DNA from: Paramyrothecium sp. XJ0827
Lineage: Eukaryota; Ascomycota; Sordariomycetes; Hypocreales; Stachybotryaceae
NCBI GenBank assembly: GCA_020881915.1
Contig: JAJFPB010000009.1
Coordinates: forward strand, 1,798,001 to 1,862,000
Direction: 5' to 3'
DNA length: 64,000 nucleotides
Shown here piece by piece: positions 8,501 to 43,611 of this stretch; the stretch's first letter is position 1, and every line of letters begins with the position of its first letter. The position numbers and the translations under genes are program-made. Under the pieces are notes generated by a model. The model was given only the letters and a program-made list of their open reading frames with translations, had not been told where the DNA came from and did no database searches.

Positions 8501-11500
8501 CTTGTATCTCCGAGTGGTTCCCTTCTAAGTTTTGAGTCCTGGGCAACCCACGCCGACACCGACGACTCGCTTTCAGACGCAAGTTCAACCAACATTTGGG
8601 GCCTTGAAGTTACCTCAATTGCCTCATCAGAACCAGGAGAAACCCACGTTACAGCCAATGGGAGCTCCGACTCATCCGTTACCGATACCATCGACAACAA
8701 CGAGCATTCCAGCCTCGCGCTCGCAAGGGACATCGCTAGGCTGAAGAGGGAAGATTCACCTGAACCTGCCCTTCACTCGTCCCACGCCTTCTCTCGTCCA
8801 GCCATCAAGGAATCCATCCTCAAGCATGTCGGCCTCGAAGGAATCGACAGGAACACTTGGCAACCTAGCCAACATCCCGAAGCTAGAATCAACAGCGGGA
8901 TGGATCAACTGGAGCCGAGAAATGAAGGATCATCTCACGATGTCGGGTTATGGAGACTTGTTCAAACGAAACAAGGACAAACCCACCGGCACCAGCGCCG
9001 CGACCGTTGAAAAGATCGACAACTGGCTCTCCAAGCAGGAACGCGCGTGCGGAGCCGTCCTCAATCGACTTGGATACAACGCCAGGGAGCAGGTAAAGGA
9101 CAAGGAGACCGTCACGGAGATGTTCAGTGAGCTTGAGAAGCGCTTCAAACCAAAGGGAAGCGCGGTTTTCCAAGAACTCGATCGACGATACAACAGCCTC
9201 ACCCTAGACCAATGCTCGGGAGTCATGAACTTCGCGGAACGGCTGCGAGAAGCTCAATCTGAACTCTTGCAACTAGACGAGACATGCAAAATCGGCACGC
9301 CTCAATTCATCAATAAGTTCCTAACCGGACTTGGCCCCGAATACGAAGTGTTCCTCACTGCTTTCTACCAAAACCACAACTTGCTGCCCGAAAGAGGCTC
9401 CAACGGAGAAGTAACCAAACCTGCCGTCACATTCGAAATCGCCCTTGCCGCAGCAGCAAGAGGAGATGAACATTCAACAACGAGAAAAGACCAAGATACA
9501 ACAAACAGCTCTGCTGGCTGGAACACGTGGTCTTCGCAAAGACCGAGTGACTCAAACATGCGACCACTGCAACAAACCAGGTCACAACAAGGCCGGATGT
9601 TTTGGCTTACACCCCGACCTTCTTGAGGAGTTCAGGAGAAAACGAGCACTTCGGAGTGAACGACGAGAAACCAAGCTTGAGAGGAGAAAGGAGAACTCCT
9701 CGTCGCTGCAACCTGACGAGGATCACACTGCCGCCGTCGCCTTCTTAAACACGGCCTTTCTATCTCTTCAACCCCAGTTTGGCCTGGCTGCATCAGAACC
9801 ATCCAAACTACTGGAGCGAATCCACGTATTGGACAGTGGCGCCTCCTCCCACACGTTCTGCCACCGACGGAACTTTACATCACTCGAGAAATTCACCGGC
9901 TCTGCCATCAACGGCATAGCTGGCTCGGCCATTATGCCTGAGGGGCAAGGCACATACACCCTCAAAACCATATGGAACAATACCAAGGGAAAGACAACCT
10001 TTCATAAGGCACTTTACGTGCCAGGCGCTCACTGCAACCTCATCTCAGTCTCAGTCCTTGAGGAAGATGGAGCAACTATTCTATTTCGAAAAGGACGAGC
10101 TGTCGTTACAAACCACGGTAAAGTCATCCTCAGCGCCACTAGGAAATTCGGTCTATACGTCATCGACGAAGATGACGAACAACTGCACACCGCTATGGCC
10201 GCCTACTCCGTCAGCGACCCCAAACTGCAGATCTGGCATGACAGGCTCGGCCATTTGGGAGAACAGAACTTACATTGACTCATGAAGATGTCCACGGGCA
10301 TCACTCCTCTATCTGACTCCAACGTCTGTGAAGCGTGCGTAAAAGGGCGCATGAAGGAAAGGCCTCATCGCGGATGCATTCGAAAAGGAACAAGACCACT
10401 GGAGAGCGTTCACGGCGATATCGCTGGCCCTTTCTCAGACGAAGGCATCGACGGCCATAGATACTGGGCCTGTTTCATAGACGATTTCACCAAAATGACC
10501 TGGGTCTTCCCAATCAGGCAAAAGTCCGAATTTGGCAACTGCTTTCGAAAACTTCTGGAACAAGCTGAGACACCAACCCGTCGCTGCCGTTACCTTCGCC
10601 TCGATCGGGCGGGAGAAAACCAAGCTGATACAATCACTCTCTACTGCGAAAACAAGATAATTGAGATGATCTTCTCTGCTACCGAACAGCACGAACAAAA
10701 CGGGGTGGCCGAAGTAGCAAACCGTGTCCTACTCGAGAAAGTCACAACGACTCTCATCCATTCAGGACTGGAAAAGAAATTCTGGCCATACGTCCTCAAA
10801 TCCATGGCATATATACGAAACCTCTCACCAGCCTCGGGTCGTCAAATCACACCTTATGAAGCATGGCACAAGGAAGTGCCGGACCTCTCCCATCTCCGAG
10901 TTATCGGCAGCCGAGGCTTTGCAAAAATGCCTTCAGCCAAACGGAAGAAGATGGACGACAAGACAATCCCCTGCCGACTCCTCGGCTATCAAGGGAGCAC
11001 AAACTACGTCTTAGTCGACGATGATGGAAGAATATTCTTTGCGAATAACGTCGTGTTCGATGAGGAATCCCTGCCGAGAAAACGAATTGCATCCGAGCAA
11101 CCAACTGACGAACCCAACGCAAAACGGATGGATCTCACACCATCTCTTCCAACTATACCCCTAACCGAAAACATCAGAACAGACGAAGAGATACAGGCAG
11201 CCCTCAACCAATCCTATCTACCGAACCAAGACGAGCCGAGCTTCCATGTGGAACTGGGGACTCCAGAAAGAACACAAAGCCCCGACGGTGTAATCAATGA
11301 ACACCAAGTCCCAATGGAATCAACCGACCGTCATTCCGAACTACGCTTTCCAGTACGGGAAACCCGAGGACAAATGCCATCGAGATACACAGTCCTAGCT
11401 CAACAAGACCCAGAAGCTCAACAAAACCAATGGCGTTTCACCATGATTGCCATTCATCTGGCCATGATCGCCAACAACCTCGAACCGACCGAACCCGAAA

Positions 11501-14092
11501 CCTTTGCCGAAGCAATGAATTCGCCACATAGCGAACAATGGATGCATGCCATGATTGACGAAATCGACTCCTTAACGAGAAACGGCACCTTCATACCAGT
11601 CAACCTACCTCCAGGAAAACATACTCTCCAAGGCAAATGGGTATATAAGCTCAAGCGAGGAAAGGATGGCGAGATTACCAGATTCAAAGCTCGCTTCGTT
11701 GTCAGAGGCTTCGAACAAAAGAGGGAATCGACTACCACGAGACGTTTGCCTCCGTGGTCAAGCCGATGAGCTATAAAATGATCTTCGCTATCGCTGCGGC
11801 CCTGGACCTTGAACTAGAACAAATGGATGTCAAAACTGCCTTCCTTTACGGTGGTGTTAAAGAAGAAATCTACGTCACTCAGCCACAGGGCTTCGACGAC
11901 AAATCAGGCAAAGTCTTCCGACTGCGGAAGGCTCTCTACGGTCTTAAACAATCTCCCCGAATCTGGTACCAGACATTATCTGATTTTCTGGAAACCCTCG
12001 GCTTCAAACCACTCAACGCCGATGTTGGCGTTTTCATCCGTGGCACAACCTACATCGCCGTCTACGTGGATGATCTCCTAATCGCTGGTCCCGATAAGGA
12101 AGAAATCCGCCAAATCAAAGCCGCCTTGAGCAAGAAATTCGAAATGACTGATCTTGGTCCGTGTCAGTACTATCTGGGAATGTCCGTCCGGAGAGACAGA
12201 CGCAACAAGGCCATCTTCCTCTCCCAACGAGCATATGTCGAGAAGGTCCTACGGGAATTTGACATGTGGGAGAGCAAGCCAGTCACAACTCCCTAAGCAC
12301 GTCTAAATTCCAACCTGTCCCAGACGAATACAAAGCGTCTGAAACGACGAAACTATGGTACGCAAAGGCAATTGGTTCACTTATGTATGCCATGCTTGGC
12401 ACTCGCCCAGACATCGCATTTGCCGTCTCTCTCTGCAGCCGATATCTGGGAAACCCAACCAACGAGCACGTCCAAGCCGTCAAGCGCATCATGAGGTACT
12501 TACGAGGAACGATCGACTTGGAACTCGTTTTCAGCGGACCACTCAGACCGTTAGTTGGGTACACCGACTCAGACTGGGCTGGCGACCACGACACTAGACG
12601 GTCAACGGCTGGTTATGTCTTCAATGTCGGTACAGGCGCCATCAGTTGGAGCTCCAAACGACAACCAACGGTCGCACTATCATCCTGCGAAGCGGAATAC
12701 ATGGGGCAAACACAATGCACCAAAGAAGCGATCTGGCTACGAGGGTTGCTGCGCGAACTTCTGGCCCAATACAAACATGGAGACCTTCAAACAACTATCC
12801 TCTACGGGGACAATCAAGGGGCAATTGCAATGGCCAAGAATCCACAGTTCCACGCCAGGACTAAGCACATTGACCTTCAATGGCATTACGTTCGAGAACG
12901 AGTCTCGGATGGAGACGTTGAGCTCCAATATGTCCCAACCGAGCAACAAATTGCAGATGGACTTACGAAACCCCTTCCAAAAGACCGTTTTATCGTGTTT
13001 CGCAACGCGCTGGGCCTCTCCAATCCATGATTCACTGTTGGTCACGCAAATATGGGTCATGAGAAAAGGTGGTGACCGGGAACACCTAGCCAACCGACAC
13101 TCCCGGCGCCGAAAGTCTATTATATCAAATTCATACGGTCTTTTACCCTTTCCATCATGCCCCAAGTGGGAGAAAATGGGAGCCCAACAGTCTATCCCAA
13201 TCATCGAGCCTCCAAGTGACCCACAAGTCCTCGGTTCGGAACCCTTCGGCTTCCTGCAACAAACCTACAACAGCTTCAGCTGTATCTGAGCGCTCATTAC
13301 GTACATACCAGAGCCATTTCATTCAGGAACGTACCACACAAGAGCCAATTGGAAAGAATCCCATGGCAAACGAACACGATCGAGATACAAAACTACAAAA
13401 CTACTAACACAGCAAACGCTGTTGGATTGGCTTCCTCAGCCTTAATAACCACAGTCCTACAAGACATGCAACGGAACCTGCTCAATCGGATCCGGCCAAA
13501 GAAATCAAAATACCTCGACGATCGTAGTCGAAAATACCAACAAATGACAATATTAATGTCCTCTATATTTATTTTGGAAAAATATAGACCTGCGATGAAG
13601 TGGGAGATCTGGGGTGTTAAGGCTCCAGTGATCGAAGAATCCAAGGCTTCATTCAAACATCAAACATCAAATAATCTGGAGGATCTGGGGTGCTAAGGCC
13701 CCAGTGACCGAGCAATCCAACGCAGGTGTGGTAATAGAAGCTCTTTCCTGTTTTTCACCCACGAAGGTGTTTTTGAGGTTTTAATGAGGCCACACTCTGT
13801 TACGCAGAAACATCTCGCACCAATGGCTCGAGTGGGAGTGTTGAGATCCGTTGTTTTTGACGGATCAATGGCTATTCCGATCCATTGGTGGCTGGGATGT
13901 GGATGTCTTGTCTATAGCTTCCGCTGGTTAGCGCTAGCCTTTCTTCTTCTTTAATCAATATAATATGCTCATTTCAACACAACGTGTGTATGGTCCAGGT
14001 CCTGAACAACACCCCACACTCGCATGCACGAAGTTACCCACCTTTCGCTTGTGGCAGGCATCACAAGCCTTCCGGTTCCGATCTCTGACCAT
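5519..14092 (-). CDS. Zn2Cys6 transcription factor with a Copia element in intron 1
   Basis: Fungal binuclear-zinc-cluster regulator, 661 aa if spliced. Exons on the minus strand: 14092-14042, 7677-7568, 7462-6679, 6619-5838 and 5777-5519. Exon 1 encodes the start and the first two cysteines (KACDACHKRK). Exon 2 supplies the remaining four, giving C-x2-C-x6-C-x8-C-x2-C-x6-C. A Fungal_trans (PF04082-like) domain follows, including the segment MFMLFMYESFSGR rebuilt across intron 3. Intron 1 (14041 to 7678) is now 6,364 nt; without the retrotransposon and one target-site copy it would be 208 nt. Phase is 0 on both sides and the other introns are 58-105 nt. Such a long intron is exceptional for this kind of genome, so the gene may be silenced or cut short. 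It was probably the pathway regulator of the adjacent methyltransferase cluster (inference). Confidence 0.8.
7829..7969 (+). repeat. 5' LTR
   Basis: 141 bp, starts TGTTGAGATCC and ends CATTTCAACA. No difference from the copy at 13839-13979 was found by eye. Confidence 0.95.
7970..7983 (+). promoter_or_regulatory. Copia primer-binding site (initiator tRNA-Met anticodon arm)
   Basis: GGTTATGAGCCCGG directly abuts the 5' LTR. Its reverse complement, CCGGGCTCATAACC, has the form of an initiator tRNA-Met anticodon arm with the CAT anticodon. Drosophila copia is known to prime from an internal tRNA-iMet fragment in this way. Confidence 0.7.
7984..8825 (+). other. Copia 5' leader
   Basis: About 840 bp of untranslated leader between the primer site and the Gag start at 8826. 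No long coding frame or conserved domain was seen. Confidence 0.6.
8826..13030 (+). pseudogene. Copia Gag-Pol polyprotein, 3 frameshifts and 1 stop
   Basis: Gag begins at ATG 8826 in frame 3. The frame moves to frame 1 near 9455; it continues with the zinc knuckle (CDHCNKPGHNKAGC), the protease motif (LDSGASSH) and the pre-integrase HDRLGH block. An in-frame TGA at 10276-10278 interrupts the pre-integrase/integrase region. Integrase follows from 10282 (HGDIAGPF, DDFTKMTW, QNGVAE). The frame shifts again near 11722 into reverse transcriptase (KTAFLYGG, YVDDLL) and near 12294 into RNase H (TDSDWAGD, SSCEAEY, TKHIDL). The final stop is at 13028-13030. With three frameshifts and a stop this copy cannot make a full polyprotein unless bases are wrong. 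A programmed shift between Gag and Pol is possible but would not explain the other three lesions. Confidence 0.9.
13606..13720 (+). repeat. 39-bp imperfect direct repeat in Copia 3' region
   Basis: Two 39-bp units, 13606-13644 and 13682-13720, begin GATCTGGGGTG and match at about 34 positions. They lie in the non-coding stretch 13031-13838 between pol and the 3' LTR, which otherwise shows nothing recognisable. Confidence 0.75.
13839..13979 (+). repeat. 3' LTR
   Basis: 141-bp copy of the 5' LTR, followed directly by the target duplication CAACG (13980-13984). Confidence 0.95.
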
Positions 14093-15594: not shown

Positions 15595-18106
15595 GTGATG
15601 GGTGTAAAAAGGGATGAAAAGGGAATGAAGAAAAGGACAGAAAAAGGGTTAGACGATGGTTTTGCTGGTCTTCCAAATACACCTGTTCACTTTAGCCTCG
15701 ACCCATGCTCAATCGCGATGTCAGCCAACCTCCGGTCTAGAAAACAACCACATGAGGGACGCTTGAATGATGCCAATGGGAAAACCGGCCCTAGGCTTGT
15801 AGGCGAGATCCCAGCTCCAGAAACCGAGTTTAGACCTCACGATATTGATACCCAACTCCTGAATGCGACCCCTCTGCATAGCCCGCTTCCCGGCGAACTA
15901 ATATCGACTCTGCAACTTGTTCGGGACACTGTTGGCATCAACGAACGACTGACTAAGGGCTCTCGAAACTTTCAATAATCTATATAGCTCACCGCCCGGA
16001 AGCTCTTCTCACGAAAACCGTACCTCGCCGCATACGACAACACCTCTGCAGGCAGATGAGGAGGATGCCACAGGGTATATATCCCAGGAGTCTACGACTG
16101 GCTCTAAAAAGGGCTATACCAAACCCACCAGTCCCAGGACCACTCGAGCCAACTGCCGAGGCCTTATATACCCGCGTCAACACATTTGCAAAGAGAATGG
16201 ATTCGCCATCATCAAGCGAAATGGTCTCACCCGTAAAGGCCGGCTAGCTCGTTACACATTCGAATGTGATCGATACGGAGAGCCAAGGGTTAATAAGAAA
16301 AGGGCTGGCCTTCGCGAGAGGAGATCTCGCAAGTGTGGTTGTAGGTGGAAGATGGTAGAGAAAAACAATTATCACTGGCATCTACGCCAGCTCGATGATC
16401 CAGCGCACAGCCAACACAACCATCTACCAAGCATCAGACCATCCGCCCATCCAGCCCATCGCAGGCGCGTGACGCCGCGGTACAAGAAACCATCAAGTTA
16501 TCTAGCCGCCGGGTAGGCATCCGGGCCCGCGATGTCCGCAGCATCGTCAAGGAAAAGCATCCAGGGACCGTACTCACGCAAAAGGATATATACAATGCTA
16601 GAGCTGCTATTGGCCGGGAGAAACTTGATGGCCTCCCTACAAGTGCTGCATTATTAAAGCAGTTCGATAGGTGGACAATACCGTATATTACGAAATGGGA
16701 CGAGAGTGAGCCTAACCGGCTCGTCGGGCTTGTGTGGACTCTCCCATACTGTCTACGCATGTGGAAGCGTTTTCCAGAAGTCCTAAGCTTGGACAATACA
16801 TACAGTACAAATCGTTTCAAGCTCCCCTTGTTTCAGGTGACTGGACAAACCTGCCTTGGGTCAGTGTACAATGCTGCGTTCGGGGTCGTTGATAATGAGA
16901 GGGTTGAGGGGTTCCAGTTTCTTGTAGATGCGATTCGAGATCTGGCAGCCCGATACGATATCCGTATTCCGGATGTGGCCATCACGGACTTTGACGAACA
17001 GATGAAAGCTGCCATCTCTATTACCTTTCCCGAAACCCAGCAGCAGCTTTGTATCCACCACATCAACTCCAACGTACTCCTCCGGGCCAAACAAAGGTGG
17101 AAGCATGTGATTAATACATTGCCTCGGAAAGAACCTGACGCTGAAGGGTCGCCTTGTTGCACACAAGATCAGCTGACGTTAAATAACGAGGACCGACTAG
17201 CAGTTAAATTATCCGAATCTCAGGAGGAAGCTGTCGCTGAATTTATTGGTCATGACTATCGAGGGGTCCTTGAGATGTGGAGACTGGTCCGCCATCATCT
17301 CTTCAATAGCTTCGGCTAGCCGAAAAAGGTGACTCATGCCATTTAATAAGTAGCCCTTGATGCTGTTATTACTCGCTTCTGTCCCAGAGGTGACGCGTAT
17401 ACCGAAATTGCGATACCCTCGAATAAAGCAGCGTGCCCACTGTGCCCTAACAGGCATATAGATCCGATATAGATATAAGAGGATGGCTCTTTGGTCATCG
17501 AACTCTTTACAGAGCATAATCCACGCGTTGTCATGGTCTTTCTCGGTCTCGGCAAAATTTTAACGACCGTTGTGCCCAGGATGGGATTCTCACGAATCGT
17601 GAATATTCTAGGCAGTCCTCTGACTACCTTGGAGAACTCCGGACCATTATGTCCCTTAGAGGGTTAACTCTGATTACATGGCAGTACCGAAGGGCATTAA
17701 AGGCATACCAACAAAGTCAAATCCTAAGCCAGAACTGGTTGGGGACTGTGACGTTAGTTGCATGGTTTCGGTAGAGATTGGCATTCCATGCTACCATAAG
17801 ATCTACTCTAAGCTTGTATCTGGTAGACCCTTCTCCAAATGGGAGGTCCATCAGCGGTGGCATCTACGGGAATCTACGGTAGATGACCCTACCGACGGAT
17901 TCTCGACCCAAATATTGCCAAACCTTTTTGCGGAAAGCCAAAGAACACTGCTCAACCCGTTCCCAGACGGCTGGCTATCGGAGCGGTCTTCCATTCACAG
18001 GGATCTCAGGCAAGTCAAACAGAAGGCCAGCCTGATATTCAACTACTCCAGCCTGCAGGCGAATCGGTCGCAAGACTATCGGCCGAAGCAAGCCAGACTC
18101 TGAACT
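15595..18106 (+). pseudogene. MULE transposase remnant with internal inversion
   Basis: N-terminal frame 15595-15978, then a FAR1/WRKY-GCM1-like DNA-binding block around 16140-16350 (ENGFAIIKRNG, RKCGCRWKM), with frameshifts near 16194 and 16425. The MULE catalytic domain is open from 16432 to about 17285 (LDNTYSTNRFKLPL, AITDFDEQMKAAI, CIHHINSNV). From about 17286 to 17555 the next part of the transposase (DHDNAW, EFDDQRAI, YRNFGIRVTSGTEASNN) is found on the minus strand, so this segment is inverted. Plus-strand coding resumes at about 17556 (REYSRQSSDYLGELR), shifts again near 17755 and reaches a SWIM-like block (GIPCYHKIYSKLVSGRPFSKW). The gene cannot be functional as it stands. Confidence 0.85.
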
Positions 18107-32805: not shown

Positions 32806-35800
32806 TTAATTCCTCCCTAGGGCTAGGCCCAAGTCAAAGAGTATATCCCAAACAGTTCTTCGTTTCTCGATTCTCCCTATCCACTGGAATGCAGCGAGAT
32901 AGTCCATCAGCAGATGAAGAGCCCGGTCTAAAGTACCCTCTGTTCTGGTTGCCATCAACGTGCGCTGGATCGTTTGCAGCCCTCGCACATGTTGTGGGCT
33001 CAGCTGTGCGCAATCAAAAACACCCGCGCCGGAAAGGTTCTGGTACGGTGTGAGCGCCACAAACACAGATCTCTGATCCTGCGAAATATGGGTAGTATCG
33101 TCATCGTTGTTTGATATGTCAACCACTGCGTCATTGCTGTCATCCCGGTAATGCTGCTGTGATTCCTCTGGCCCTAGTGTTGCCTGCCGTCTTGACGTAA
33201 ATGCCCGGACCAACATCCGCTTGAAAGATCCAAGGCCATCATGATCGGCTGTATGTAGCTCATATGGGGCAGCCTTGTGAAAGACCTGCCGCACTACTAA
33301 AGCTTGATTGGCACCTCGCAGCCACATGATAAAGTCATTGACATTCGGTACTCCCTCCCAGTACAGTGCTCTCACATACCATGGAAGATGGTCCGTAAGG
33401 TAACTTCTCTGGACCCAGGGCGAAGAGATGTATCGCGCTGCGATGATAAAAACCAAACTCAAATAGTATAGTAGGACGAGTGTTAAGCAGACATAGAAGA
33501 GCAAGATTGTGTACATGACTGCCGGTAGGAGAAGAAAGTTTCTACCAGTGAAGTAAATAGTGCAAAATACGGTATACGATATTTTTTCAACGCCACACTG
33601 CACTGGATTGTTTAGGAATTCGGTGCACTGCACGGCATACGGTATTCCACTATATTTAAGCAATATCGTATCGTAATATCATATCGCACGGCGTGCGAAG
33701 AGCCGCATGGCCTAAGCATAAAACTAACCAAATTGAGTAAGGTTGAGGCTCAAGATAGTCTCACGGACCCTAACAAGATGAAGCCATTCACAGCCAACAT
33801 ATAAGATTATACTATTGCCAGATAACGAGAACGCTCGGGAAAACGTTTTCCTAGACCTCGCTCGCGTATGTTAAGGGTTTACTTAAGCTACATTATTGAC
33901 TAATTTAACGTCACTCCTATTGCTTAGGTGTGAGAATGAAATAGGTAGATCTAGAGGTCAAAGAAAACTCCACAGATTCGAGCATTATGAGTTTGAATTG
34001 TTTGCATACTATCTATTGCTCGTAATATCAGGTATAATGTTAGAAGACCCCTGCTGTTCCTCTTCTCCAATGATAGCTGTATCCAAGACAAGCGCAACGT
34101 CGTCAACCCAAGCCAAGTTGTGAGTCTTCGACCAGGACTTTATGCACTCAATTGCCTCGATTATATCAATCCCTAACCTGTTCCTGCGATCTTGGAGGCA
34201 TATATGGGGAGAGTCCTCGTATTACTCGTATTACATAGTACTTGCACTATATTTGATATCATATTTATACGATATTTGAACGACCATGCACTGTATTACA
34301 CGGTTTCCGGTGTTGCTTGCACTGCACGGTATAAAAATACCGTGCAGGCAATACGATATTGAATATGATATTGTCTTATTTACGGCCACACTATTTACTT
34401 CACTGGTTTCTACCTGAAGGGAAGATAATGATGGAGCCGACGGAGCCGCTGCTTGTTGACACAACAAGTATGGCAATGAACAGTGATGTAGTGAGATAGA
34501 TGAGTGAGATTGTGAATACAGTCTTGGCTGGTAGGGTGGCAATGAGATTGGCGCCGACTCGAAGCGGGCGACGGAATGTTAATGCTTGACATGATTCAGG
34601 ACCTTTCGAGTGTGTTAGCACAGGTATCCAAGGAGATCACTGGTAACATGGCTTTCATACCGGCAATGGATATACTCGTATTCCTGCTCACCGCTGCGGA
34701 TGGCACTTGAGCATTCGTTGATTCATGCACTTCCCAACAATTGCGAAATGTCAAGGAACATAGGTATTCCACTCTCACAGACTTGCTACCTCGTTCGATG
34801 ACTTTAAAGGCAGCACCATTTCTTCTGTGATCGCTGACAAGGGTGTGCGTCTGGGTAGACGCATTCAAGTACACCAGCAGGTCTAGGTTCTCTCCAAGGT
34901 CATCTCTGGGAAGATCGAGTTGAACGTGAGGATGGACTATTGTCTTTGACGGAATGCCTAGGCAAAAGCTTGACTCCGAGCTACAGGGACTCGCAAAGAA
35001 GCAGAATTTGTTGCAGGCAGACTCCATATCGAATTGCCCACGTTTCACTCTGACAGCATGGGCGAAAGCGTCATCAGAAAGCTTCGGGGCGATTGGGTGC
35101 GCTGGAAGCCATTTCATGGCATTATCGGTATTGGTATCGACCTTAGTAGGCAGGCAGAACAACTGCATAGGCAGTCTCTTCTGGGAAAGAATAACGGCTC
35201 TCATTCTGTCGTGGCCGCTGTAATTCTTGAGCGCGAATGCGCTGTAGTCTAGGAGGCTGCGTTCTAATGTCAGTATAGAACTGGCGTCAGTCCATTCTTT
35301 AAGGCTTGGTACTTACTTGGCTACAATGTAATGGAAATCCTCAGGCTGTGTCGTCGAACGGCCTATCAGGCTGTTCCACACCTCCAGGAACTGCACCTCC
35401 CTTGAAGACGAGCAGTAAGCTGCAGCTGCTGTCAGGTCTTGGGTGCCGCGTCCGACAGACGGAAGTGATGCTTGCTTTCCCAGCGCTTCACGAAGCGCCA
35501 ATAACTCCGGCGGTGCTTCATTCACTAAACGAGGAGGCATCCGAGAAGCATAGAAAGATCTTGCGCGGATGGGACAGTTTCCATAGTGAGCCCAGAGTTG
35601 AGAAGCCAGGGCTCCTTCTTGGAGTGTCCATGAACGACTCATCCAACTGCATGTAGCGAAGCGACCCATCGCTTCCGTAGATATCTGCAATTCAGTAATG
35701 CGGTCATTGCGGGAAGTGAGTGGTTTTAGGAGCGAAGCAAGACCAATCTCGGAATCAAGAACAAAAACCTGGCGGGCGCAAGAATAGGTCAAATCCATTA

Positions 35801-37122
35801 GACGAATTGCTTGCTCTTTAAGAGCTTTATGGCGGTCGCTGTTTGGCTTCTGAACAGGAATGCAAAATACATCCATCCAGAAAACTACGGGAGCTTGATC
35901 ATCCTCACTGGGCGAACCTATATCGGCGCTGGTGAAGGATGGGAGTTGAGGCTTCGAAACCACCTTGCCTAGGCGCTTGAGCTTCCTGTACAATGCCTCA
36001 AACTGGCACTTGGGGAGGGAGTTACTCGCAGGATTTCCAAGTCCGTCAGCCCAAACCTAAGAAAAGCGGTCAGCATCCTTCGTTGTTTTTCCATCGACAT
36101 AAACTTACATGACTTATCGCGTAGTAGAATGTTGGTTTGCCCCAGATGGTAAGAGTCTCGGCCGGAATTACTTCAATGGCAAAATGACCGGACGGTTTTC
36201 TTACACACGATAGTAAAGGAATCTTGTTCTTTTCGAGCAGAGCCATGATTTTCTCTTCCTCGACCAATACATGCGCGCAGTTGCAGGTTTCCGTCACGTG
36301 CGGAGGCTGGAATTCGTTCCAGTCGATCTGATTTGCCTGGCAGCAATCTTTCTCAAGACAGTTATCATGGCTTTTGTTCTTCTTTCTCCTATCCAGAGAA
36401 GAGAGGTAGACCATGGAAGTCGCACTATGTTGACTCATGAGCTGGTTGATTTGGCGAGGGCACCAGCCATTTTGCACCATGTAGTCCCAAAAGAGAAAAT
36501 CTGTCTCCTTTCTACCATCACTCACCATCGTCGTAGGGCAGAAAGATAGCCGGGCGATGATGGTGTTGAGAGTCGGCGTAGGATACAAGACTGCCCTGAC
36601 GGTATGGCAAAGCGAGCAAAGCATGATCTTGATAGAGAACATGACGAGACGCGCGCGACGCACTTCGCCCACGAGATGCTGCATCTGCTCGCCAGCCCAG
36701 CAAGCGCGAGCCAAGAGGACGCTCAATCGACGAGCCTCCCGATATCGCAGGCCAGCGTGGGTGATCAGCCGCCACGGCAAGGATGCAACCCAGCGAGCGC
36801 GATAGTCGTGCAGAGCCGTTGTGTCAATGACGCGCTCTCCATTTGCGTCTACTCGAGTAAAGGTAGCCCATCCTACCTGTTGCTTGAAGAATTCTGTTAA
36901 AGTGCCAAAGAAGAGCCACGACTGGGCCAGCGATAAAAGACATTCTTGAGGCAAAAGGCTTGGTTGCGAAAGCCGCAATTCCTGAAGATGACGTTGCGGA
37001 AACGTCAAGAATCCGTCTTCTGTTTCGTTGCTATTGTACGGCCATTGGTCTCTCGATTTTGCGACAAAGGGAATCGACAGCAGTGGCAAATTTGCGCCAT
37101 TGGCGAGCGGGAGATGCTCCAT
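32806..37122 (-). pseudogene. HET-domain membrane protein gene disrupted by a hAT-like MITE
   Basis: Heterokaryon-incompatibility (HET, PF06985) protein. Exons on the minus strand: 37122-36109, 36056-35317, 35256-34622, then about 34557-34406, and after the insertion 33537-32806. HET blocks: AISHVWADGLG (across intron 1), FWMDVFCIPV and MSRSWTLQEGAL. The C-terminal part is membrane-rich: one helix near TVFTISLIYLTTSLFIAILV, then after the insertion a long hydrophobic stretch (VMYTILLFYVCLTLVLLYYL), the YLTDHLPWYVRALYWEG block and an acidic tail. Dropping the MITE and one target-site copy joins the flanks in one frame of 1,090 codons. With the MITE present, translation meets TGA in the inverted repeat itself (CAG TGA), truncating the protein to about 848 aa. 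The small intron at 34621-34558 is the least certain junction. Confidence 0.75.
33546..34405. mobile_element. hAT-like MITE (non-autonomous DNA transposon)
   Basis: 860-bp AT-rich element with 17-bp perfect terminal inverted repeats CAGTGAAGTAAATAGTG (33546-33562 and, inverted, 34389-34405). It is flanked by the 8-bp direct repeat GTTTCTAC at 33538-33545 and 34406-34413. The 8-bp duplication and CAGTG ends point to the hAT superfamily. No transposase was found inside. Subterminal palindromes include a GCACGGTAT stem with a 4-nt loop around 34325-34350 and repeated ATACGGTAT / ATCGTAT motifs. Confidence 0.85.
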
Positions 37123-40050: not shown

Positions 40051-43000
40051 ATGTTCAAGTCTGAAATACATAAGCGAGCTTCAGGGCAAGCGAAACCCCG
40101 CAGCGAACATCGACCGTCCAGTAATGCGCGCTTCGTCCGGCGAACAGGATGGACAAGATCCATGACATTGGGTTCTCTCCGGTTGGAGACCACTCGAAGA
40201 GCGAATCGTATCGCTTCAAGTGAGGCCTCCCAATCGAATTGCAGTTTCATCGTATCTTACCAGAGCCCCAACATCATTTTCGTTCATGGATTGAAGGGCC
40301 ACGCAGAACGGAGCTGGGGCCATCGCCAACCCAGTCACCATGAATGCGATGCCTCGTCGAGCCGCAAGTCGCGGAGGTCCATGAGGTCTTACCTCAAGCG
40401 GGTGCATCCTTCGCAAGACTCTTGTTCCGAAAGTGATAATCAGAAGAACACGAAGCCGTTCTGGCCCGAAATCCTCCTTGCCCAAGACGTGCCGGAAGCT
40501 AGGATTTGGACTTATGGTTTCAATTCAAAGGTAATCGAAGACACATTCAAAGCAAATAATAAGAACAACATCTCGCAGCACGGTCGTGATCTGGCAGTCA
40601 AATTTGACCAAACGATGAACAATGAGGTCGGTAGAGTCATTTGTTGAGGATCTGCTTCACCACTGACCATCACGAAGAACCCTGTGGTATTCATAGCACA
40701 CAGTCTCGGCGGCATCATAGTCAAAGATGTGGGTTTCGTTGACCTGGCTATTTCCAATACTCACGACCGTATACCAATGCTTGACGGGCCTTTCACAGAT
40801 CAAAGTTATGCCAGAAGCTTACGAAGTTTGTCATTTTCCTCGGCACTCCGCACCGTGGAAGTCCGCAAGCTACCTGGGGTGTTATAGCCGCAAAAATTGC
40901 CCGCCTTGCATTTGTAGACTCGAACTCGAGGCTTGTGGAGGGGCTTCGGGTCAATAGCGAAGTTCTGGACAACATCCATGACAACTTCGTTAACCTCCTC
41001 CACAGCTCTGATATCAAAATCCATTCTTTCCAGGAGGGTCGTGGGATCTCGGGATTCCACGGTCTCGAAAGCAAGGTCGGTAGATGACATGACCTCCTTG
41101 GAGCTAATGCTTATTCGTTGGCAGGTTGTGCTCGACGATTCTTCTAAGCGTGGTCTCCCAAGCACCATCTAGACAGTCGAAGCGGTTGACGCAGATCATC
41201 GTCAACTGACAAAGTTCACTAGCAAGGACGATGCAGGCTATCGTGCAATACTTGCATCAATCAGAGCTTTTTTGCAATCACTCACCGAACAAAGATCCTC
41301 GGGTTCAGTAGCTCTCCCATCAGCTTCCCTACAGCAATCCATAAGACAACACAGTCCTAGCCCAGGACATTCTCAATCAGCAGAAAAAGGTTTGTTTAGA
41401 TTTAGGCTGGTGCTCGCAATTATATGTAATAACCTGCTCCAAGGACCGCCTTTCTTTCATATCGGCCTGCCAGCCAACAACCGTTTTGTAGGGCGGCAAT
41501 CCACTCTCCAACGAATAAGATCCCTGTTTTTTGACAATCCGACATGCTACAAGGTCGCAATAGTTGGGCTCGGAGGGATTGGAAAGACTCAGGTGGCGCT
41601 CCAATTTGCTCTTTGGGTGAAGGAACACAAACCAGATTATTCTGTTTTCTGGACATCGGCCCTGAGCCGGAGCTCCTTCGAACAAGGATACACCAGCATC
41701 ATGAAAGCATGTGGCCTCGGTAGCAAGTTTGAAGAAGATACAAAAACCCATGTTCAGCGGTACCTTGAGTCATCTTCTTCAGGAAACTGGATTCTGATAG
41801 TCGACAATTTTGATGAGGAGGAAATACTTTCGGACTCTTCTACCACTACTCCTAGTCTTTACAGCTACCTGCCATCAAGCAAACAGGGTCGCATATTGTT
41901 CACAACCAGATTTCGCAACATAGCCATCGCATCTACTGGCGTCAACGTTATAGACGTCCCTGATATCACTCCAGCAGAAGCAAGATGTTACTTTGCGACT
42001 TCGCTGATCAATAAAACTCTTCTAGACGATGACGGCGCAGTCGAAGAGCTGCTCGACATGATAGCGTACTTACCGTTAGCGATTACCCAGGTAGCCGCGT
42101 ATCTCAACGAGAACCAGCTCACGGTTACAGAATACTTAGAGCTATACAAGAACACTGAGCAAGACCAGATTGAACTGCTAAGGAGTGAATTCCACGATGA
42201 CACACGATACCAGCAGGCTCAGAACGCAGTAGCCAATACGCTGGTGATCTCCTTCACACAGCTGCATACAGTCGACCAAAATGCGGAACAGCTGCTTTTG
42301 TTCATCAGCTGCATTGAGCCGAAGGCCATGCCGCAATCGATTTTTCCACAAGGTGAATCAAGACAGCAGCTTACCCGCGCAATAGGAATCTTGCGCGGGT
42401 ATGGTTTCCTAACGATACGACAAGATCGCAAGACATTTGACATGCATAGTTTGGTCCATGTTGCAAGTCGTGCATGGCTTGTCAAGGAAGGGACAGCTGA
42501 GGAAGAGCGTCAAAGAACAATTATTCATTTGATTGAAGTATTCCCAGCTCCGAGATGGGAAACTCGTGATCAATGGCGCCAATATCTTCCCCATACCCTC
42601 AAGGCCATTGACTTGAGCAGCCCTACTAGGCCTCAATGCCTCTTGGGACACAACACAGCACTAGCTCTTCTGTTTGATGGACGTACCAAGGAAGCATTAC
42701 AGCTGCTCGAGCATATAGTCGCCACCGATTCAAGACTTTTCCGGGAGGACCACCCAAATCGTTTGGTGTCACAAATTGAACTTGCGAGAGCTTACAACAA
42801 TGATGGCCAAGTCCGAAGAGCACGACAGCTTCTGGAACATGTCGTGTCGATCCAGTCGATAACCCTACCAGACGGTCACCCACAGCGCCTTGCGTCACAG
42901 CACGAGCTTGCAATAGTGTATAGCGCCGACCGCCAGGTTCGGAAGGCAATGCGGCTGCTAGAGGCTGTAGTCGCAACCCAGGCAAACACTTTACCAGAGC

Positions 43001-43611
43001 TTCACCAAGAGCGCCTTGCATCGCAATATGAGCTCGCAAGGGTGTACAAGAACTGCGGCCAGCTTCAGAGCGCGCAGAGACTCCTGGAGCATGTGGTCAG
43101 AATTCATTCGAGGATGCTATCCGAGGACCACCCAGAGCGGCTTGCATCTCAGCATGAGCTCGCAATAGTGTACAACGCCAACGGCCAAGTTCAAAAAGGG
43201 CGCCAGCTTATAGAGCATGTTGTCACCGTCAAATCCGAAGTATTGGCAGAAGATCACCCAAGCCGCCTAGCCTCACAACACGCCCTTGCAGTGGTGTACA
43301 AGGCGGACGGCCAACTTCAGAAGGCGCAGCAAATACTAGAGCATGTGGTAGGGGTCAAGACGAGGACCTTGGCAGCAAGCCACCCAGAGCTTTTGGCCTC
43401 GCTGCACGCGCTGGCAACAGTGTACGAAGCGGCTGATGAACTGGAAGAGGCCTTGCATCTACTAGATCGTGTTGTTCGAACCGAGTCGCGAAGCTTGAGC
43501 GCGGATGACCCGAGCCGCCTGGTGTCACAACGAGCACTCGAGAGGGTCCAGATGAAGCTGTCTTCGGACCGGCACATCATGAGGGCAACACAGCCTGCGA
43601 TTGAAGGTTAA
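40051..43611 (+). pseudogene. fungal NLR (STAND): alpha/beta-hydrolase + NB-ARC + TPR, one premature stop
   Basis: Exons: 40051-40626, 40678-40728, 40815-41075, 41125-41389 and 41444-43611 (1,106 codons if the stop is read through). N-terminal SesB-like esterase: oxyanion segment IIFVHGLKGH, nucleophile Ser201 in FIAHSLGG, then IFLGTPHRGSP. NB-ARC: P-loop VGLGGIGKTQVALQFA, WILIVDNFDE (Walker B) and ILFTTRFRN. The C-terminus has about seven TPR-type repeats of 42 residues from 42.65 to 43.55 kb. A TAG at 41170-41172 (codon 312) lies in frame between the esterase and the NB-ARC; the frame is open on both sides. Such proteins act in non-self recognition and programmed death. The 3' acceptor of intron 2 and the start codon are less certain. 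Confidence 0.75.
42650..43550 (+). repeat. TPR-encoding tandem repeats, 126-bp period
   Basis: Seven units of 42 codons, each carrying variants of LASQHELAIVYNANGQ and LLEHVV. Similar wording such as GAGCTCGCAATAGTGTA recurs at DNA level, which indicates recent duplication or gene conversion between units. Confidence 0.8.

Follow-up and report, generated by a model that had tools for sequence, protein, structure and literature searches.

Probable truncation of a HET-domain gene by a putative hAT deletion derivative in Paramyrothecium sp. XJ0827

In the 64,000-nucleotide stretch of DNA analysed here (the window), the reading frame of a HET-domain gene is interrupted by what the initial annotation described as an 860-bp hAT-like MITE with 17-bp terminal inverted repeats (TIRs) and an 8-bp duplication. 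An 860-bp element was delimited on the minus strand at positions 33546 to 34405; its orientation is that of a residual transposase coding piece and is shared with the HET gene. The sequence CAGTGAAGTAAATAGTG is present at both element ends as an inverted pair without mismatch over 17 bp (left TIR, positions 33546 to 33562 on the plus strand; right TIR, positions 34389 to 34405 on the minus strand), and the 8-bp target site GTTTCTAC is duplicated on either side (33538 to 33545 and 34406 to 34413, unstranded), as had been claimed. Target site duplications of 8 bp are a hallmark of hAT transposons, and their short TIRs have the consensus start CA(G). The perfect 17-bp TIR starts in this way, and 8-bp duplications were found at this locus and in most sister copies. 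When the window was searched with the TIR pattern at up to three mismatches, just the two element ends were detected; two or more such loose matches were reached in 2 of 100 shuffled controls, so this test by itself is not strong. The strong evidence for the element is its other copies in the host genome.

A pattern placed on the deletion junction of the element occurred 11 times in the 51.8-Mb host genome (a lower bound, as are all repeat counts from pattern searches), and the reversed pattern used as a control was not found. The initial annotation had proposed looking for further copies, and a DNA search with the element gave 11 full-length copies with the same junction (40 of 64 candidates scored). 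Across the 861 aligned columns of these copies, only two were variable, both 1-base changes in homopolymer length. The absence of substitutions means that the copies arose very recently from one source, and the 11 aligned copies show no trace of repeat-induced point mutation. Perfect 8-bp duplications flank 10 of the 11, the sole exception being L005, where no matching duplication was present.

Longer relatives were identified from the element ends: in the host genome, 37 sites matched the left-end pattern and 41 the right-end pattern. Pairing by hand yielded 22 elements of 3,358–3,367 bp, three of ~0.9 kb (L033 through L035), and the 11 of 860 bp, leaving one left end and five right ends unpaired. 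In four full-length elements (L031, L037, L038, and L039), the 860-bp element matched as two end pieces at 97.6–98.6% identity, indicating that ~2.5 kb had been deleted. The element is composed of 653 and 207 bp from the two ends of the 3.36-kb element, with the internal-deletion junction between element positions 653 and 654 (window positions 34198 to 34199, unstranded). Among the seven 3.36-kb elements in which both ends were read, the duplication was perfect in L031, L037, L038, L056, and L057 and imperfect in L058 (7 of 8 bases) and L039 (6 of 8). In the 0.9-kb class, it was perfect in L033, and L034 and L035 had no matching duplications. L005 and L034 lie near each other (G000:C2:1325598 and 1329874), and the right flank of one is the reverse complement of that of the other (GGCAAGAT and ATCTTGCC), a possible sign of rearrangement between copies.

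We then examined the coding content of the full-length elements. A 279-residue frame of L037 contained the Dimer_Tnp_hAT domain (PF05699; 66.1 bits, 2.5e-18) and also matched structure chains of the Hermes transposase, as expected for the autonomous partner of a hAT element; the other three of the four frames scanned from full-length elements had no Pfam match. The L037 piece had 22 stop-free matches in the host genome, 98–100% identical over 253–279 residues. The hAT-like assignment was accordingly upheld by the 8-bp duplications, the sister copies, and this full-length relative. None of the four full-length copies read (the same four as above) showed an unbroken transposase frame. Joining the putative exons of one copy revealed a single plausible intron but yielded no complete frame; interruption by introns could account for some of the breaks. 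The transposase source is therefore inferred, and the youth of the copies suggests an active helper element.

The term MITE fits only loosely. MITEs are usually much shorter than 800 bp and occur in high copy number. The element is non-autonomous, has lost its coding capacity, and has ends in common with a longer element, in keeping with the name; however, it measures 860 bp, was found in 11 copies, and retains ~67 codons from the end of the transposase. This residual C-terminal coding piece (positions 34012 to 34212, minus strand) matched the full-length element over 67 residues at 91% identity, and the longest minus-strand frame in the element is 70 aa. The element is better named an internal-deletion derivative, probably a young one, of a hAT transposon resident in this genome.

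Contigs C1 through C4 (1.0–2.2 Mb each, 12.7% of the genome) carry 8 of the 11 (binomial P 8e-6, a guide only because the grouping was chosen after the counts were seen), and C2 and C4 hold most of the listed matches to the L037 piece. These contigs may be accessory chromosomes. By hand reading, 4 of the 11 copies (L001, L002, L007, and L009) are flanked on each side by frames longer than 75 codons that are in phase with one another. L002 (G000:C13:304548-305408) splits a DUF7223-domain gene with 371 and 308 open codons in phase; profile positions 1–215 matched on one side and 217–253 on the other, the latter scoring 26.4 bits and so narrowly missing the cut-off of 27. L009 (G000:C1:820528-821388) sits within an open frame whose two parts, 187 and 284 codons long, were judged by hand to be in phase; only the left part matched Fungal_trans_2. 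L007 (G000:C2:222157-223017) is surrounded by in-phase open frames on both strands, and its minus-strand pieces had no Pfam match. Other transposon types were also observed in the window, namely frames with Copia-type gag and pol domains (positions 8745 to 11766) and a Mutator-like element, recognised by its MULE transposase domain and by a sub-threshold FAR1 match (positions 15953 to 17316). A mimp-type end pattern had 0 matches.

The insertion site is in the last coding exon of the HET-domain gene, for which four exons were modelled on the minus strand: exon 1 (36109 to 37122), exon 2 (35317 to 36056), which holds most of the Pfam HET domain, exon 3 (34661 to 35256), and exon 4. The element divides exon 4 into an upstream part with predicted transmembrane helix 1 (34406 to 34602) and a downstream part of 243 codons plus stop with a further hydrophobic helix (32806 to 33537). 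The introns of 52, 60, and 58 bp have GT-AG ends, and the upstream exons are open. The minus-strand frame is open up to the element and in phase again beyond it. In the empty-site reading, with the element and one duplicate removed, the pieces join in phase as previously described, although our model with its three short introns comprises 1,092 codons versus the 1,090 claimed. With the element present, the frame runs for 850 residues and then reaches a TGA (34400 to 34402, minus strand), which is the second codon of the element and lies within the TIR, confirming the reported in-frame stop right after the junction. In the 850-aa product, Pfam HET (PF06985) matched residues 333–485 at 26.5 bits against a cut-off of 22.5. 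Exon 2 scanned alone gave 24.1 bits, and neither the other three gene pieces nor the lost 243 C-terminal residues had a Pfam match. A hydropathy scan predicted one helix at residues 812–830, before the stop, and another in the lost part.

A search with the 850-residue product returned 581 proteins, of which the best 120 were listed. The best match, P0001 (Arachnomyces sp. PD_36, 1,084 aa), was 55% identical over 99% of the query; among the 120 listed, no other covered as much of the query, and P0003 alone was more similar (59% identity over 40%). When P0001 was aligned with product residues 1–844, the start codon of exon 1 fitted that of P0001, and the three intron junctions fitted by eye. The upstream half was 54.6% identical to P0001 over 868 columns, and residues 840–1081 of P0001 matched the downstream half, in the same order, at 32% over 255 columns. 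Of the five best homologues compared, three (P0001, P0002 from Purpureocillium, and P0003 from Monosporascus) combined the two halves in a single protein in that order, and the matches of P0004 and P0005 were confined to the first half. Stretches within or close to the HET part are missing from P0002 and P0003, perhaps through gene-model error. Together with the TIRs, the duplication, and the sister copies, the homologues with both halves in one protein bear out the claim that the element was inserted in the coding sequence of a HET-domain gene.

Exon 1 gave nine matches, all at 62% identity or less, and neither a near-identical intact copy of the gene nor the empty site was found among these nine or among the 120 listed of 581. 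In the host genome, the HET exon query had 12 weaker matches at identities of at most 44%, and the C-terminal half had no match besides its own locus. Judged from these searches, the gene appears divergent and single-copy in the host genome. HET-domain matches as a whole are abundant there, with at least 150 (150 scored of 293 first-look candidates; control, 0 of 14 named genomes); the disrupted locus is weaker and not among the 150, of which 4 have stops inside the HET domain match. Targeting of HET genes was considered and found unneeded: one hit among 11 copies would be no surprise given at least 150 HET matches and, the hit locus being divergent and single-copy, targeting is not implied. 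The insertion need not have been directed to this gene class.

The gene had also been called allorecognition-type. This label derives from the HET domain, whose score is only modestly above the cut-off, and the role in allorecognition is putative. Some of the homologues listed bear heterokaryon-incompatibility names. At positions 41173 to 43608, ~4 kb from the HET gene, an NB-ARC and tetratricopeptide-repeat open frame (NLR-like) was observed, and its relatives were 37–56% identical among the 120 listed of 718.

On the evidence of the element ends, the duplication, the sister copies, the full-length relatives, and a homologous protein spanning both sides, we consider it highly probable that a resident hAT deletion derivative recently inserted and truncated a single-copy HET-domain gene. 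An internal deletion of the resident 3.36-kb hAT transposon would have produced the non-autonomous 860-bp element, which would have been mobilised by the transposase of its own family. A recent cut-and-paste insertion into the last exon would have left the usual 8-bp duplication. With the TIR supplying an in-frame stop, the predicted product would have at most 850 residues, with the HET domain and one membrane helix; the other helix and the C-terminal tail would be lost. The insertion is thus most likely a protein truncation that removes the C-terminal part, and the resulting allele is most likely loss-of-function or altered. Of the earlier wording "knockout or truncation", truncation agrees with the stop after 850 residues, whereas knockout is unsupported because this reading keeps the HET domain. 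The element and the gene run in the same direction, so the 3' end of the transposase unit would be brought into the transcript. AATAAA was not seen in the element on the gene strand, where variants such as AATATA and TATAAA are present, and premature polyadenylation in the element is therefore only possible.

Instead of being null, the 850-residue protein could be a functional, possibly altered allele that carries the HET domain on a single membrane helix. The domain (residues 333–485) and the predicted helix (812–830) both precede the stop, the exons upstream of the insertion are open and separated by GT-AG introns, and the HET domain itself is described as mediating cell death, with recognition in other regions (PMC13412767). 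However, the C-terminal part lost here is conserved in P0001, and a very young insertion need not have faced selection; we regard this reading as unlikely. A bolder form of it is quite improbable: a new allele with a membrane-tethered HET domain and no C-terminal part, kept or spreading by changing strain compatibility, within a current burst of the hAT derivative that hits several genes (HET, DUF7223, and transcription-factor-like).

The element might also be spliced out as an accidental intron, keeping the frame with 19 extra residues, in which case the gene may still work. A donor, AG/GTAGAA, lies within the duplicated target site, and the final 400 bp of the element offer 20 listed AG acceptors, of which six are in phase; one of these six, TCCTAAACAATCCAG, is open, 57 bp before the far end of the element. 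The existence of this one acceptor keeps splicing at a low probability. The donor is nevertheless weak compared with those of the gene itself (two GTAAGT and one GTATGA), the intron would be ~0.8 kb, far longer than the 52, 60, and 58 bp of the gene's own, and no clean branch point of the consensus CTRAC was found before the acceptor. We therefore consider rescue by splicing very improbable. That the halves are separate neighbouring genes with the element between them has a negligible probability: the downstream part does have its own open frame running into the element, and P0004 and P0005 matched the first half alone, but the pieces join in phase and, when homologues were inspected for halves occurring as separate genes, three of them carried both parts joined in the same order.

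Truncation by the hAT derivative, the preferred reading, is an event of a kind already known from the Podospora anserina, Fusarium oxysporum, and Fusarium poae reports. The P. anserina gene nwd2 is reported to be inactivated by a transposon (the REPA element) in the het-s isolates analysed (PMC3321046). As a natural transposon inactivation of an incompatibility-network gene, it is the closest precedent for transposon loss of a fungal incompatibility gene, although nwd2 encodes a NACHT/WD (STAND) protein and was followed in many isolates, whereas the present gene is of the HET type and was seen in one genome. The element shares its hAT type with the Hornet, Drifter, Folyt1, and Tfo1 families of filamentous ascomycetes (PMC3599309, PMC4994206). 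In F. oxysporum, a hAT element (Drifter) is reported to have disrupted a host gene, and a hAT insertion to have made an effector pseudogene (PMC3599309). The mimp and mFot5 elements of that species, tied to the Tc1/mariner element Impala and to Fot5, respectively, resemble ours in being non-autonomous, in having lost the transposase, and in sharing ends with a resident full-length element; ours differs in its 860-bp length, its 11 copies, and its retained part of the transposase end (PMC3599309). No hAT MITE is named in the accessible text of that source. On the core chromosomes of F. poae, 10 gene disruptions were reported among 135 recent insertions (PMC4994206), likewise recent integrations that disrupt genes, but 9 of those 10 involved a pogo-type element rather than a hAT derivative. 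As for the gene, its domain score places it with the HET-domain (PF06985) proteins, among which it is a divergent member with a C-terminal hydrophobic part and no known role. A count of 74 HET-domain genes across 76 strains of Neurospora crassa has been reported (PMC13412767), and HET-family pseudogenes are reported to have arisen via RIP and, in one case, via an inversion beside a transposon relic (PMC1805685). The accessible portion of PMC10890737 holds nothing on transposon disruption, and the word "transposon" is absent from the text of PMC2873952. No report of this locus or element family was found in a literature search of open-licence papers.

The general view, in which transposon insertions in fungal genes, including incompatibility genes, are already known, is unchanged, and with HET genes so numerous in this genome it is no surprise that one was hit. 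The locus offers what appears to be a clean, young natural disruption of a single-copy HET gene whose source transposon family is still in the genome. The insertion would serve as a ready presence/absence marker, and it provides a natural test of whether loss of the C-terminal part of this type of HET protein changes compatibility.
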